Source of the DNA: Clostridia bacterium | GTDB lineage: Bacteria; Bacillota; Peptococcia; Peptococcales; BICA1-8 | Direction of reading: 5' to 3' | Length of the DNA stretch: 34,233 bases | Assembly (NCBI GenBank): GCA_012800195.1 | Contig: JAAZJU010000063.1 | Span: forward strand, 1-34,233 | Shown here: positions 24,645 through 31,532 of the stretch, piece by piece | How positions within the stretch are numbered: the first letter of the stretch is position 1 | Layout: each line of letters opens with the position of its first letter | Program-made: the position numbers and the translations under genes | The notes under the pieces: model-generated | What the model was told of the DNA's origin: nothing | The model's input: the letters and a program-made list of their open reading frames with translations, nothing else | Database searches by the model: none

Positions 24645-25025
24645 TCATTGTGCCCATCGAAGCGATTTTAGGATGACAAGGGATCAAGTTATTGACATCA
24701 TATCTTAGAAATGTTGACACAAGCTCGTCCTCTTGGTGCAGGCAATATTAGTGGAGGATTTATAGACTGAGAAAGATGAGTGGTGGAAAGGAAACTAATA
24801 ATCAAAGTTTTTAAAAGTTCGTAGGCGTTCAATAAAGTAGCAGTAATTTCATTGAAGAAACTGTTACTTTTCTTTTTATAATTTATTCGTAGGAAGATTT
24901 TCAGTGAGGGCTAATAATGTTTTTTATAAGTAACAATAATATAAGAACTTAAATAAAAGATAAATAACAATGCAAATTATTTTTAAAATAGTATTTGGTT
25001 AGTTTATTAGGAGGTGAAAGGACAT
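24645..25025 (+). other. Non-coding stretch of about 380 bp, perhaps with decayed coding sequence
   Basis: No gene of convincing size is present on either strand. At 24673-24708 a short frame reads MTRDQVIDIIS before a stop; in another frame 24711-24770 reads MLTQARPLGAGNISGGFID before a stop. The second has a protein-like composition, so a frameshifted gene remnant is possible, but I recognise no family. A terminator lies at 24834-24880. The rest up to the lipoprotein gene is AT-rich leader. Confidence 0.4.
24834..24880 (+). terminator. Terminator in the 24.6-25.0 kb gap
   Basis: AAAGTAGCAGT (24834-24844) pairs with ACTGTTACTTT (24860-24870), 11 bp with one G-U pair, followed by TCTTTTTATA. 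The 15-nt loop can form a small inner hairpin. It would end transcription coming from upstream of the gap. Confidence 0.75.
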
Positions 25026-26852
25026 ATGCGAAAAGTCTTTATCTTTTTAATATTTTCCACTATGTTATTTATGGTAGTTAGTTGTAGTAATAATAATAAT
25101 AATACCTCGGGCGACCAAATTACAACAATTAATGACTTAGTTTATGAACAAAAAAAAATTGTGAACATCGAGATTACCCAGGAACAGAAAGGGACTTTTG
25201 TTTGGAAGCTTATAGACGCAGCGGAAATCCAGGCGTTTTTAGAAACCATATCTAATATTGCTTTGGAGAGATTGCCCTCAGAGCAAGATATAGCCTTTAT
25301 GGACAAAGGGTTAAAATTTGTAGAGCAAGGTCTGTATCGAATAGGTTTTTACGGTGAGGATAAGAACCCTTTAGGTGACTTCCTAATCTGGTCTGATGGA
25401 AAAATATATATTAGGGATAATAATGTACCAGATGGTGAAAAAGTAATATCCTATTTGTCCAAGGTTAATCATCCTGAAATCTATAAAAAAATTATGGATA
25501 AAACGAATGAAATGACTGCAGAGGGTCAGAAGTTGGAGAGGATTAGTGCTACATATTGGCTAGGTGATGAAGGGGAAAAGACCATTGAGTATTATATAAA
25601 AACTGTTGAAGAAGAATTTAAGGACATTCTCAGTGAGAAGGGTGATATTATTCTTTCCGGTTTTGAAGAATATGATCTCATGCTAGAACTTGTCCTTGCT
25701 AAAAAAGAAGGAAAATGGGGCCTTTATGACAATAGAGGCTCAAAGATTTTAGACCATTCCTATGAAGCAATATCTAATCACGAAATGCCCAATGGCTATA
25801 AAGCAAATGGACTTGTGGGTGTAAGGAATAATGGGATGTGGGGAGCCATTGACCAGGTAGGGAAAATTGTTATTCAGCCAGAATTCGAATATATTGATTT
25901 AAACCATTATGAAGAGGTTGAACCATTTATCAAAGTTAGGAAAAACGGCAAATTCGGCTATTTAACCCGTAAGGGCAAAACCCTGGTTGATCCTATATGG
26001 GATACTACCTTTATGGATGTGTTGAATGTGCTGGAAAATATTATTTTTGTCAAGGAGGGTGATAAATGGGGTGGCATCAGAATTAGAGACGAAAAAGCCG
26101 CACCCGTCGACTGGACATTAATACCTCCTGAGGAAGCTCAACTAGCATTCAACAACTGGAAATATGACTATCAACATAATTTTTATGTTCATCAAATAAA
26201 AAATGGGGAAACAAGTATTGCAGCAAGTACTAAAATTTTCTTTAATGAATATTTTAGAAAAAATTCTAGGAGAATTCGCTCTTTGCCAGAGTTCTCACAG
26301 GAACAAAATCCAGATTTTAATGAACTAGCTAAATTTGTCTATGAAAATTCGGAGAATAACCTAGAGGACTGGTCCATTACCAAAGATGACTTCTCCGAGA
26401 CTGTAAAAAGATATTTTGGAGATTTAAATTATATAGATCAAACTAGCACCTATCTGGAGTATATAGATGGGAAATACATTCCCAAAGGCTGGAGTGATCA
26501 CGGCTTTTATATCTATGAACTTACGGATCTTGCAAAGGGGCAAACAAGAGAAGGTAAAGATAGGTGGAAAGCCCAGATAACAGGCTATTACTTCTATGAA
26601 CTTGATGGTGACCCCGATGAAACATATTGGAAGTCACGGAATGCCCAGGTAGTATGGAAAAAAATAAAAGAGGATGTAGAATATAAAGGGCTTAATTTCT
26701 GGCAAGCCTGTGATCGCCTAGCTTGGAATAACCCTGGAGATATCTTAGAGCCGGCTGGGGAATGGCTGATTGAGTTTATAATAAATGATCCAACAGGAGA
26801 TATCTATTTTACATATCTATCCTGTCAGAAAAAAGGTTTTCAAATAGATTGA
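25026..26852 (+). CDS. WG-repeat lipoprotein
   Basis: A 608-residue predicted lipoprotein. The N-terminus is basic (MRK), then a hydrophobic stretch ending in a lipobox, FMVVSC, followed by an Asn-rich linker coded by an AAT/TAA trinucleotide run. In the middle are four WG (beta-barrel) repeats, GKWGLYDNRGSKIL, GMWGAIDQVGKIVI, GKFGYLTRKGKTLV and a degenerate DKWGGIRI, at about residues 235-360. The C-terminal third has Trp/Tyr-rich segments (WKSRNAQVVWKKI) that I cannot assign. WG repeats are thought to bind peptides or surface polymers, but no function is established. ATG 25026 is chosen because AGGAGGTG (25009-25016) sits 9 nt upstream; GTG 25014 lies inside it. It appears monocistronic. 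Confidence 0.85.
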   Translation: MRKVFIFLIFSTMLFMVVSCSNNNNNTSGDQITTINDLVYEQKKIVNIEITQEQKGTFVWKLIDAAEIQAFLETISNIALERLPSEQDIAFMDKGLKFVEQGLYRIGFYGEDKNPLGDFLIWSDGKIYIRDNNVPDGEKVISYLSKVNHPEIYKKIMDKTNEMTAEGQKLERISATYWLGDEGEKTIEYYIKTVEEEFKDILSEKGDIILSGFEEYDLMLELVLAKKEGKWGLYDNRGSKILDHSYEAISNHEMPNGYKANGLVGVRNNGMWGAIDQVGKIVIQPEFEYIDLNHYEEVEPFIKVRKNGKFGYLTRKGKTLVDPIWDTTFMDVLNVLENIIFVKEGDKWGGIRIRDEKAAPVDWTLIPPEEAQLAFNNWKYDYQHNFYVHQIKNGETSIAASTKIFFNEYFRKNSRRIRSLPEFSQEQNPDFNELAKFVYENSENNLEDWSITKDDFSETVKRYFGDLNYIDQTSTYLEYIDGKYIPKGWSDHGFYIYELTDLAKGQTREGKDRWKAQITGYYFYELDGDPDETYWKSRNAQVVWKKIKEDVEYKGLNFWQACDRLAWNNPGDILEPAGEWLIEFIINDPTGDIYFTYLSCQKKGFQID

Positions 26853-27042
26853 TTTTTTCTGAATTTACGCGATATTGTGAAAAACATCAACACCGAGGGA
26901 AAGTTAATAATAATTATTTATAGAATTATATAGAAGGGTGAATATGTAAAGGCCTAGACATGTAAATTTTTTCAAATTCTCACCGTTTTACCTTCTAATG
27001 CATAATACTATAATAGATATTGTGCGGGAGGTGGCAGAAGTT

Positions 27043-27978
27043 TTGGCTTTAAAATATTCCTTTCAGCCAAATAAGAATGGACGAACTAATGTAATACAGA
27101 TTAAAAATCTTAATGAAAAACCTGTAAAATTAACTCCAGTGGATTCTGATTCTCCAAAGGGCGTCCAACAAATATTGAAAGAAATAGAAACTCTTATTGG
27201 ATTAGATAATATCAAGCAATTGCTTTTTGAAATTCAAGCCTATGTTGAAATACAAAAGAAAAGAAAAATGGAGAATCTCCACAATGAACCCATTGTATTA
27301 CATATGATTTTTAAAGGTAATCCCGGAACAGGAAAGACTACTGTCGCCAGGTACATTGGCAAATTATTTAAAGAACTTAATGTTTTAAATAAAGGCCATA
27401 TCGTAGAGATTGAAAGAGCGGATTTAGTAGGAGAATATATAGGTCATACTGCGATTAAAACCAAGGAACAAATACAAAAGGCCCTAGGGGGAGTATTATT
27501 TATTGACGAAGCTTATTCCTTAGCTAGAGGTGGAGAAAAAGATTTTGGTAAGGAAGCCATTGATGTAATCGTCAAAGCTATGGAGGATTATAAAGATCAA
27601 ATTATCTTTATTCTTGCAGGATATAAAGATGAAATGGAATGGTTTTTAAAATGTAATCCTGGCTTAAGGTCAAGATTTCCTATTCATATTGAATTTCCCG
27701 ATTACAGTATAAACGAGCTAGTAAAGATAGCTGAATTGATGTTGAAAAATAGAGAATATATATTAACCAAAGATGCTAAGATTATTTTAAAAAACAAGAT
27801 TCAAGAAAAATTATTTTATGGTCATGAACATAGCGGTAATGCCAGAATGGTTAGAAATCTTATTGAAAAGGCCATTAGACTTCAAGCTGTTAGGCTAATT
27901 GAGAGGAAAAATATTACTAGAGAGGATTTATTATTAATAACTATAGAGGATATTCAAGAAGCAACACGGGCTATTTAA
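27043..27978 (+). CDS. spoVK: Stage V sporulation protein K, AAA+ ATPase
   Basis: A CbxX/CfqX-type AAA+ ATPase highly similar to SpoVK, needed for spore maturation in Bacillus. Walker A GNPGTGKTT is at 92-100, Walker B LFIDEAYSLARGG has Asp155, then ILAGY and the arginine-rich GLRSRFP. I place the start at TTG 27043: GGGAGGTGG at 27026-27034 is 8 nt upstream, and the resulting 311-residue protein (MALKYSFQPNKNG...) matches the short N-terminus of Bacillus SpoVK as I recall it. ATG 26998 would add 15 residues but has no Shine-Dalgarno sequence. Gene order spoVK-hflX-ynbB matches B. subtilis. Confidence 0.93.
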   Translation: MALKYSFQPNKNGRTNVIQIKNLNEKPVKLTPVDSDSPKGVQQILKEIETLIGLDNIKQLLFEIQAYVEIQKKRKMENLHNEPIVLHMIFKGNPGTGKTTVARYIGKLFKELNVLNKGHIVEIERADLVGEYIGHTAIKTKEQIQKALGGVLFIDEAYSLARGGEKDFGKEAIDVIVKAMEDYKDQIIFILAGYKDEMEWFLKCNPGLRSRFPIHIEFPDYSINELVKIAELMLKNREYILTKDAKIILKNKIQEKLFYGHEHSGNARMVRNLIEKAIRLQAVRLIERKNITREDLLLITIEDIQEATRAI

Positions 27979-28454: not shown

Positions 28455-30254
28455 ATGAACCAAGTATGGGGAGATGTTTCTTCATTAAGAAACACAGTTA
28501 TCAACGAGCTAGAAGAATTGTATACTTATAAAGTACCCATAGGTTTAATAATTTCCCATGAGTTAATTGAAATACTTAATTATCTTACTATAAAAATAGG
28601 CAAGGAAATCGCTGTGTACATAGATAGAAAGGGAAATGTTAAGTATGTAGCGGTAGGTTCCAATCAACAGGTTACAATACCTGAGATGTGGATCAAAAGG
28701 AAAGAGGGCGGCTTAAACGGATTAAGGTGCATTCATACCCATCCCAATGGTAATAGTAATTTAAGTTCTGCTGATTTAAGTGCTTTAAATAATCTTAAAT
28801 TAGATATGATAGTTGCTCTTGGGGGAGATGAAAAAGGAATTAGATGCAGTTTGGCTTATCTTCAACCAACTAAGGGGGAGCTAACTGGTAATTTTACTTT
28901 ACTTAGTGAATTAGATATTGCAACTTTATTAAAGATACCTTTTTTAGAATTAATAAAAAATATTGAAAAGGAATTGATATATACTGGTTATGCTGTTGGG
29001 CAAAAGGACCAGGAGGAAGTTATATTGGTTTTAGTGGAGATACAAGATAAAGTTGAAACAAATGAAATGGAGGAAGCCATTAACGAATTAACCAGCTTAG
29101 CTGAAACAGCTGGCTTGAAGGTAAGTGGAGTGGTAACCCAAAGAAGAATAAAGCCTGATAATTCTTTCTTTATTGGTAAAGGAAAGATAGAGGAAATCAG
29201 ACTTCTTATTCAACAAAAGAAGCCAGATTGTATTATTTTCAATAATTCGCTGAGCCCTGCACAACAAAACAATCTTTCTGAATTTCTAGGCATTAAAGTG
29301 TTGGATAGAACAGATTTAATTTTGGATATTTTTGCCCAAAGAGCAAGAAGTAGAGAAGGTAAGTTGCAAGTGGAATTAGCACAACTTAATTACCTATTAC
29401 CTCGTTTAATAGGACAGGGTACTATACTTTCTAGATTAGGTGGGGGTGTAGGTACTAGGGGACCTGGAGAAACTAAGTTGGAAACTGATAGAAGGCATAT
29501 TAGGAAAAGGATTAATTATTTAAAGGAACAATTAGCTGAGGTAAAGAAAAACAGGGCTATCCAAACTAAAAACAGAAATAAAAATGCTGTCCCCCAAATA
29601 GCTTTAGTAGGTTATACTAATGCTGGCAAATCCTCACTACTCAATACATTAGCTGATGAAAACATCTTGGCTGAAGATAAATTATTTGCAACCTTGGACC
29701 CTACAACAAGAAGCATCACTCTAGAAGAGGGAATAAGGGTATTGGTAACGGATACAGTGGGTTTTATCAAAGACTTACCCCATCAATTGATAGAGGCCTT
29801 TAAAGCAACTTTAGAAGAAGCCAAAGCTAGTGATTTACTTTTACATATTATAGATATTAGTAATCCAAACTGGGAAAATCAAAAAAACAGTGTAAATAAA
29901 GTTTTAGAACAATTGGAGGTTACTGATAAACCGATAATCTTAGTTTATAATAAAGTGGATTTGTTGCAAGAAACACCAATAATGCCGCCAGAAAGACAGG
30001 AAAACTGTTTTATTTCTACCAAAACTGGGGAAGGAATAGAGCAACTTAAAAACTTAATCAAAGACCATTTTTTTGGACAAAATAAGGTATTAAAATTTTT
30101 TATTCCCTTTGATAAAGGAAATATACTGGATAAACTATATAATTCAGGAAAAGTACTGGAAGTAGTTAATGATTACCAAGGGTACAATGTAATAGTAGAA
30201 ATAAATGAAAAGAATTTTGTTGAAGAATTTAAAAAATATATCATTATGGAGTAG
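28455..30254 (+). CDS. hflX: GTPase HflX with N-terminal JAMM/RadC-like extension
   Basis: HflX is a ribosome-associated GTPase that splits stalled or stress-inactivated 70S ribosomes. The protein has 599 residues against about 420 in E. coli and B. subtilis. The typical HflX part begins near residue 185: FFIGKGKIEEI, LSPAQQNNL, LDRTDLILDIFAQRARSREG, RGPGETKLETDRR, the P-loop GYTNAGKSS (386-394), DTVGFIKDLP (Asp433) and NKVDL. The first 185 residues carry HTHPNGNSNLSSAD: His94, His96, Ser104 and Asp107 match HxHx7SxxD of JAMM metalloproteases and RadC, with Glu51 (GKEIAVYIDRKG) as a candidate upstream glutamate. The frame is continuous with no sign of sequencing-type fusion. ATG 28455 follows AGAGGG. 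The YnbB-like gene starts 6 nt after the stop. Confidence 0.95.
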   Translation: MNQVWGDVSSLRNTVINELEELYTYKVPIGLIISHELIEILNYLTIKIGKEIAVYIDRKGNVKYVAVGSNQQVTIPEMWIKRKEGGLNGLRCIHTHPNGNSNLSSADLSALNNLKLDMIVALGGDEKGIRCSLAYLQPTKGELTGNFTLLSELDIATLLKIPFLELIKNIEKELIYTGYAVGQKDQEEVILVLVEIQDKVETNEMEEAINELTSLAETAGLKVSGVVTQRRIKPDNSFFIGKGKIEEIRLLIQQKKPDCIIFNNSLSPAQQNNLSEFLGIKVLDRTDLILDIFAQRARSREGKLQVELAQLNYLLPRLIGQGTILSRLGGGVGTRGPGETKLETDRRHIRKRINYLKEQLAEVKKNRAIQTKNRNKNAVPQIALVGYTNAGKSSLLNTLADENILAEDKLFATLDPTTRSITLEEGIRVLVTDTVGFIKDLPHQLIEAFKATLEEAKASDLLLHIIDISNPNWENQKNSVNKVLEQLEVTDKPIILVYNKVDLLQETPIMPPERQENCFISTKTGEGIEQLKNLIKDHFFGQNKVLKFFIPFDKGNILDKLYNSGKVLEVVNDYQGYNVIVEINEKNFVEEFKKYIIME

Positions 30255-30260
30255 AGATTA

Positions 30261-31532
30261 ATGGAAAAATTTTTTCAGGAGTTGCTATCTAAATATAATC
30301 TAAAACAAGAAATACATGAAACTTTACAAACAGCTTATAAAGAGGCTCACCAAATATGGGAACCAATAAGTGAGATAACAGCCTTAAACCAACTAAAAAT
30401 ACTACAGGCCTTTCAGAAAAATCGAGCAACGGATTTTCATCTTCATGGATCTACAGGTTATGGTTATGGTGATACTGGTCGAGAGGTTTTGGAGGATGTA
30501 TGGGCAGATATATTTAAAAGTGAAAAAGCTTTAGTACGACCTCAGATAGCCTCGGGCACCCATGCTATTGCCTTATGTCTATATGGAATACTTAAGCCCA
30601 ATGACGAATTTATTTCAATCTCAGGTATGCCTTATGATACTTTACAAAAGGTTATTGGTACTCATGGGGAAACAGGAACTTTATCAGAATTAAATATAGT
30701 CCATAAAACAATTGATCTAAAAGAAGATGGGGATTTTGATTTTGAAGGAATTAGGAAAAGTATTACACCAAAAACGAAGATGATCTGTATTCAACGTTCC
30801 CGAGGATATAGTTGGCGACCCTCTTTGACCATTAAACAGATTTCTAAGGCTATTGATTTTGTCAAAACTATAAATCCTAACATAATATGTTTTGTAGATA
30901 ATTGCTATGGCGAATTTGTAGAACTTGAGGAGCCCACCCAAGTAGGAGCGGATCTAGTAGCGGGATCATTAATTAAAAATCCTGGAGGCGGTATTACTCC
31001 TAGAGGTGGCTATATAGTTGGTAAAGAACATTTGGTTTATCAAGCAGCATGTCGTTTGACTGCACCTGGCATTGCTGATGATGTAGGTTCGGCCTTAGAT
31101 TTTAATCGTCCAGCTTTTCAGGGACTATTCCTCGCCCCTTTGATTGTAGAACAAGCTTTAAAGGGTGCAATTTTCACATCCTTATTATTTAGTAAGTTAA
31201 GATATCAAGTTTCACCAGAGCCAAAGGAATTTAGGACCGACATTATTCAGGCTATAAAACTAGGTTCTGCTGAAAGAATGAGAGCCTTTAGTAGAGGTAT
31301 TCAAAAGGCTTCTCCTTTAGATTCTTATGTTACCCCTGTAGAAAGTTTATTGCCTGGCTATGAAGACTCTGTAATAATGGCTGGTGGAACCTTTGTTCAA
31401 GGCTCTTCCATAGAATTAAGTGTTGATGGTCCTCTTAGAGAACCATATATAATTTATTTGCAAGGCGGATTATCCCTATCTCATGTACTTATAGGTGCAG
31501 TTTTGGCCTTAAAAGAATTAGGATGTGTTTAA
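30261..31532 (+). CDS. ynbB: YnbB-type PLP enzyme (methionine gamma-lyase/aluminium-resistance family)
   Basis: A 423-residue PLP-dependent protein of the Cys/Met-metabolism fold, in the family annotated as methionine gamma-lyase-like or aluminium resistance protein. Motifs: HLHGSTGYGYGDTGRE near the N-terminus, RPQIASGTHAI, FVDNCYGEFVE, and the predicted PLP lysine Lys239 in AGSLIKNPGGGI. The substrate is not established for this family. It starts 6 nt after hflX, the same pairing as B. subtilis hflX(ynbA)-ynbB, and the next gene starts directly after its stop, so the three form an operon. Confidence 0.9.
   Translation: MEKFFQELLSKYNLKQEIHETLQTAYKEAHQIWEPISEITALNQLKILQAFQKNRATDFHLHGSTGYGYGDTGREVLEDVWADIFKSEKALVRPQIASGTHAIALCLYGILKPNDEFISISGMPYDTLQKVIGTHGETGTLSELNIVHKTIDLKEDGDFDFEGIRKSITPKTKMICIQRSRGYSWRPSLTIKQISKAIDFVKTINPNIICFVDNCYGEFVELEEPTQVGADLVAGSLIKNPGGGITPRGGYIVGKEHLVYQAACRLTAPGIADDVGSALDFNRPAFQGLFLAPLIVEQALKGAIFTSLLFSKLRYQVSPEPKEFRTDIIQAIKLGSAERMRAFSRGIQKASPLDSYVTPVESLLPGYEDSVIMAGGTFVQGSSIELSVDGPLREPYIIYLQGGLSLSHVLIGAVLALKELGCV

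Follow-up and report, generated by a model that had tools for sequence, protein, structure and literature searches.

The window, a stretch of 34,233 nucleotides from a Clostridia bacterium, harbours a long form of hflX, whose 599-residue product carries an additional N-terminal domain ahead of a complete HflX (Table 1). The gene begins with ATG, a purine-rich agaggg/aagga lies directly 5' of it and the start region looks normal. The TIGR03156 GTP_HflX model matches residues 190–538 of the 599 with 481 bits against a curated cut-off of 216.75, the Pfam families GTP-bdg_N, GTP-bdg_M and MMR_HSR1 follow one another in HflX order, and the P-loop and GPGE motifs are present alongside ND1, the helical domain and the GTPase. 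Since the GTP_HflX match begins only at residue 190, residues 1 to approximately 186 are additional to HflX, bearing out the first-pass annotation, which had set the first 185 or so residues apart from the canonical GTPase. From its membership of the HflX family we infer that the long form, like its relatives, splits 70S ribosomes.

Table 1. Features of the hflX locus in the window (all on the forward strand)
Feature	Positions	Strand	Evidence and remarks
spoVK-like AAA ATPase, upstream	26998..27978	+	Pfam; frequent hflX neighbour
hflX gene	28455..30254	+	599 aa, N-terminal JAMM domain then complete HflX; ORF, TIGR03156, Pfam
JAMM/MPN domain, residues 1-177	28455..28985	+	AF2, Foldseek, hhalign to RadC
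Glu51, putative catalytic glutamate of the JAMM motif	28605..28607	+	Invariant in 17/17 orthologues
Basic loop, residues 70-92, between strands 2 and 3, with near-invariant Arg91	28662..28730	+	Partly low-confidence in the model
HTHPNGNSNLSSAD, residues 94-107: putative metal ligands His94, His96 and Asp107, plus Ser104	28734..28775	+	
Flexible linker from JAMM domain to HflX ND1, residues 174-186	28974..29012	+	pLDDT <50 at 178-183
HflX proper: ND1 206-294, helical domain 296-374, GTPase 381-500, C-terminal domain	29013..30251	+	Pfam, TIGR03156, Foldseek
ynbB-like / Met_gamma_lyase, downstream	30261..31532	+	Pfam PF06838, E 1.3e-174; frequent hflX neighbour

The genes found beside hflX across loci include spoVK, ynbB, those for a U32 peptidase, NUDIX, YjeF and VanW proteins and others, with no consistent partner. 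In about half of the loci long enough to show it, a ynbB homologue lies directly 3' of hflX; outside this old hflX-ynbB order, no conserved linked gene hinting at a substrate was found in the loci compared, and no ubiquitin-like partner gene was seen beside hflX. The spoVK-like AAA ATPase is no part of the mechanism proposed below. The window also encodes, at 25014-26852 (+), a lipoprotein-like protein of 612 residues with WG beta repeats (Pfam WG_beta_rep).

The N-terminal domain harbours an exact HxHx7SxxD match (HTHPNGNSNLSSAD, residues 94-107) preceded by Glu51, both confirmed on the open reading frame at the positions that the first-pass annotation had given, and the active-site set EX(n)H[ST]Hx7SxxD is complete as E51 with HTHx7SxxD. 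Shuffling the whole protein produces the HxHx7SxxD pattern in 0.017% of cases, and shuffling residues 1-185 in 0.005%; conservation, however, is much stronger evidence that the motif is real. A whole-protein search of 60 relatives recovered many long HflX proteins, and across 17 aligned N-terminal domains, which are 22-47% identical to the window protein, the invariant columns are E51, G60, G68, H94, T95, H96, P97, S104, D107 and G123, essentially the active site of a JAMM enzyme. The first-pass reading would have fallen had the His/Asp residues varied among long HflX homologues, but Glu51, His94, His96, Ser104 and Asp107 are unchanged in all 17. Glu51 is furthermore kept in 116/116 sequences of a set defined by the His/Ser/Asp motif, in whose selection it played no part and where mean pairwise identity of the domain is 36%, while only 9 of 29 motif-less sequences retain it. 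Loss of the glutamate thus tracks loss of the His/Ser/Asp residues (Fisher p 6e-18, not an exact probability as the sequences are related), a coordinated loss that would be expected if catalysis were the selected property.

The fold agrees with the motif. AlphaFold2, run on the 17-member alignment, gives a model of pLDDT 84 with the helix and strand order of an MPN domain (helices 35-48, 105-113 and 163-175; strands 51-57, 61-68, 90-96, 118-125, 128-139 and 142-153). Searched against the PDB with Foldseek, this model has the Jab1 domain of Prp8 as its top match, along with RadC (2qlc), CSN5, PfJAMM1, AMSH, Cap3, an Rpn11 homologue and COP9 chains. The scores are modest (best E 5e-4, TMt 0.55 to PfJAMM1) and the weak matches include deaminases, yet the top matches are mostly MPN/JAMM, and the other refuting outcome named at first pass, a fold unrelated to MPN, did not occur. 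At the level of sequence a profile is needed, a single-sequence search of the PDB having returned noise only. The profile ranks AMSH-type proteases first in the PDB and AfJAMM lower, all weakly (best E 0.02), and in whole genomes the HflX fusions are followed in its ranking by proteins of 220-300 residues at E 1e-5 to 1e-3, of which all 12 that were read are RadC. Alignment of the domain with RadC by hhalign reaches 96.9% (E 1.5e-10) and superimposes the glutamate strand and the HxHP motif, compared with 24% for a short HflX control in which the linker alone is aligned. The Pfam Prok-JAB and RadC models match several members weakly (best E 1.2e-4 among the 17), and on the window protein Prok-JAB scores 16.7 of the 25 bits required, so that annotation misses the JAMM domain; this JAB-clan cut-off is a detection threshold rather than a biological feature. 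Judged by conservation, the AlphaFold2 model, Foldseek and hhalign together, the extension is a genuine JAMM/MPN domain with RadC as its nearest bacterial family, and the RadC-like domain with a full EX(n)HxHx7SxxD set that was originally proposed is upheld.

The arrangement is found well outside the window. Scanned with the pattern GxRCxHTHP, a collection with one genome per species yielded 463 matching stretches, 460 of which encode relatives. The 80 that were fetched come from Clostridia, Negativicutes, other Bacillota and one member of the Gastranaerophilales; the motif is whole in every one, and wherever the open reading frame is complete it joins the domain to HflX. Clostridia, Negativicutes and Melainabacteria all include carriers; far from being the curiosity of one genome, the fusion is old and widespread. 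As the pattern favours motif-bearing sequences, the frequency of motif loss is to be taken from pattern-free surveys, which covered the phylum of the window (399 genomes) and the cyanobacterial phylum (146 genomes). In the former the domain occurs in 73 genomes at E below 1e-13, on HflX wherever the reading frame was read.

The long form is the sole HflX in 51/51 other genomes checked and presumably fills the ordinary HflX role in them. The genome of the window (G000) departs from this in having a second, short HflX (L002:1321-2583 (-), contig C242), which the tree places (100*) alongside the second HflX of the distant genome G066 and not with its relatives, possibly an acquired paralogue or a contaminant contig. 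In Fervidicella metallireducens (contig L065:2255-4064) the long hflX is divided between two overlapping frames, the JAMM motif and then the HflX core, owing to a frameshift or a sequencing error. A different fusion is seen in the f60 family, among HflX proteins of 730-755 residues (L209, L210 and L213, from genomes G093, G166 and G131): the L209 protein has a complete dihydrouridine synthase, an RNA-modifying enzyme, at its C-terminus (Pfam Dus, E 1.4e-97), while L210 and L213 share its genus, length and tree position.

Distances in the JAMM domain and in the GTPase are strongly correlated (Mantel r 0.872, with 0/999 permutations as high); from these sequence comparisons, the two have diverged together and been long co-inherited. 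A single clade of JAMM-bearing HflX is ruled out on the GTPase tree (p-AU 1.4e-6, 115 log-likelihood units). On this tree, much of which is weakly supported, short HflX nests at starred branches inside JAMM-bearing groups, for example within the order and class of the window itself. Nested domain-less clades combined with high correlation between domain and core are read here as one old fusion, repeatedly lost; repeated transfer is a possible alternative history.

Not all carriers retain the metal site. The f50 and f94 families and one f102 genome keep the domain with HxH and the other ligands gone, and 62 of the 146 genomes of the cyanobacterial phylum have the same domain, located on HflX in those read (including L202 and L230-L241). 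The cyanobacterial and Firmicutes versions align as homologues over their whole length (hhalign 99.9%, E 1.3e-34), with the metal site destroyed in most forms of the cyanobacterial phylum; Gastranaerophilales L111 retains an intact site, and L200 a version of it one residue shorter. The MPN domain of cyanobacterial HflX is apparently inactive. Chloroplast HflX groups with green non-sulfur bacteria rather than with cyanobacteria (PMC10784650) and is therefore no heir of the cyanobacterial form. The residues fall into two classes: E51, H94, H96, P97, S104 and D107 are largely lost from forms lacking the site, while Arg58 and Gly60 are kept in every form and Gly68, Leu87, Gly89 and Arg91 in all cyanobacterial ones, which also retain the basic loop (residues 70-92). 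This division points to two functions, catalytic and docking, and retention of the domain by several lineages without a metal site implies a non-catalytic role as well. That cyanobacteria and three Firmicutes families possess it in this state, and close relatives lack it altogether, indicates that catalysis is dispensable to HflX generally. Most likely, the pattern of residues suggests, the domain combines a ribosome-docking role that all carriers retain with metal-dependent amide hydrolysis, which most Firmicutes carriers still have.

In the full-length model pLDDT falls below 50 at residues 178-183 and pTM is 0.63, so that the JAMM domain is tethered to HflX rather than rigidly placed. The HflX part matches the 50S-bound HflX/HflXr structures 8uua, 8a57 and 5ady in Foldseek. 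The N-terminal extension of mycobacterial HflX reaches the region of uL16, H38 and H69-71, according to the available text of PMC12493154, and by analogy the JAMM domain would probably lie on the intersubunit face. The histidines and the aspartate of the motif are zinc ligands in AfJAMM, and Rpn11 and Csn5 owe their isopeptidase activity to the same motif (PMC300881, available text). Taken with the probable intersubunit position, this role of the motif makes an HflX that delivers a JAMM hydrolase the reading considered most likely. We accordingly favour, with somewhat better than even confidence, an ordinary HflX with a tethered, RadC-like JAMM (MPN+) metallohydrolase that docks at the ribosome and cuts an amide-type bond there. 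HflX would bind stalled or idle 70S or 50S particles as in other bacteria, bringing the JAMM domain close to uL16/H38/H69-71 on the large subunit's intersubunit side; there the domain would dock through its conserved non-catalytic surface (Arg58, the basic loop and Arg91). One bound zinc, with Glu51 as general base, would then hydrolyse an amide or isopeptide bond, candidate targets on such ribosomes being a bound protein factor, the tail of a ribosomal protein or a peptide adduct; lineages without the metal site would be left with the docking role alone. A more specific version, which we hold as a tentative conjecture, is a built-in MPN+ isopeptidase or peptidase step in HflX rescue, directed at a proteinaceous mark or factor of stalled or hibernating ribosomes and later converted by cyanobacteria into an MPN- scaffold.

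The main rival to hydrolase delivery makes the metal site dispensable and the domain a docking module, mainly non-catalytic and binding the ribosome or a protein like the Jab1/MPN domain of Prp8 or Rpn8, with any metal in it being structural or regulatory. The cyanobacterial, f50, f94 and f102 forms without ligands, the ubiquity of Arg58 and Gly60, the presence of Arg91 in all cyanobacterial forms and the first rank in Foldseek of the Prp8 Jab1 domain, which is inactive, all agree with this idea. However, Glu51 and Ser104 are catalytic rather than metal-binding residues and would be expected to drift were the site purely structural, yet both are invariant in the 17 orthologues and Glu51 is present in all 116 motif-bearing sequences, which renders the docking module rather unlikely, if still a serious competitor. 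Action on nucleic acid or a nucleotide, such as rRNA or tRNA exposed by splitting, is improbable: RadC is the closest bacterial family, deaminases appear among the weak Foldseek matches and the basic loop adjoins the active site, but the catalytic set is the one found in amide hydrolases, and we know of no JAMM enzyme with established nuclease activity, which counts against it. A chance motif in an unrelated extension, to which the sub-threshold Prok-JAB score might be thought to point, is already refuted by conservation, fold, the RadC profile match and the shuffling test, and its likelihood is negligible.

Ribosome-bound structures of HflX exist for E. coli, Listeria and mycobacteria, and none of these chains has a JAMM domain, so that a putative catalytic module of a near-universal splitting factor has apparently been overlooked in Clostridia, Negativicutes and Melainabacteria, with what looks from its residues to be an inactive descendant in cyanobacteria. 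The presence of this domain on HflX suggests a coupling of ribosome rescue to a cleavage step, and raises the question of what a JAMM hydrolase cuts at the ribosome during splitting. An MPN+ step in HflX, if true, would be a bacterial counterpart of the JAMM deconjugases attached to large machines, while intact, inactive and absent forms of the domain on one GTPase offer a natural comparison series.

HflX, RadC and JAMM proteins are each known, and no description of HflX combined with a JAMM, JAB, MPN, RadC or Prok-JAB domain was found in the open-access literature; the long form is therefore best seen as a new variant on known parts. With canonical HflX/HflXr (E. coli 5ady, Listeria 8a57, 8uua) it shares ND1, the helical domain, the GTPase, the C-terminal domain, the P-loop and GPGE, as well as the downstream ynbB-like gene seen in many Firmicutes, but the solved canonical chains contain about 410-430 residues and no JAMM domain, unlike the 599-residue form. 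Mycobacterial HflX likewise has extra N-terminal sequence, although this comprises 39-58 residues and disorders H68-H71 rather than forming a folded metalloenzyme domain (PMC12493154); the available text of this 2025 review also notes that several Clostridium and Paenibacillus species have extensions, and contains no mention of JAMM. RadC (JAB domain, 2qlc), the closest bacterial JAMM by profile, shares the HxHP..S..D motif, the glutamate strand and the MPN fold, but is a free-standing protein of about 230 residues whose N-terminal region (about 100 residues) has no counterpart in the HflX domain, the hhalign match covering RadC columns 105-197 only. Its signature, HNHPSGDPxPSxxD in the 12 RadC read, differs from HTHPxGxSxLSxxD in long HflX (HTHPNGNSNLSSAD in the window protein), and to our knowledge RadC has no established enzymatic activity. 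The MPN+ isopeptidases AfJAMM, PfJAMM1, AMSH and Cap3 share the fold with the HflX domain, as well as its EX(n)HxHx7SxxD metal site; these act on ubiquitin-like or conjugated proteins, whereas the HflX locus has no adjacent ubiquitin-like gene. The Jab1/MPN domain of Prp8 and other MPN- domains, finally, are parts of the eukaryotic spliceosome and proteasome, unlike bacterial HflX, but present the same MPN fold without a working metal site that is seen in cyanobacterial and some Firmicutes HflX.
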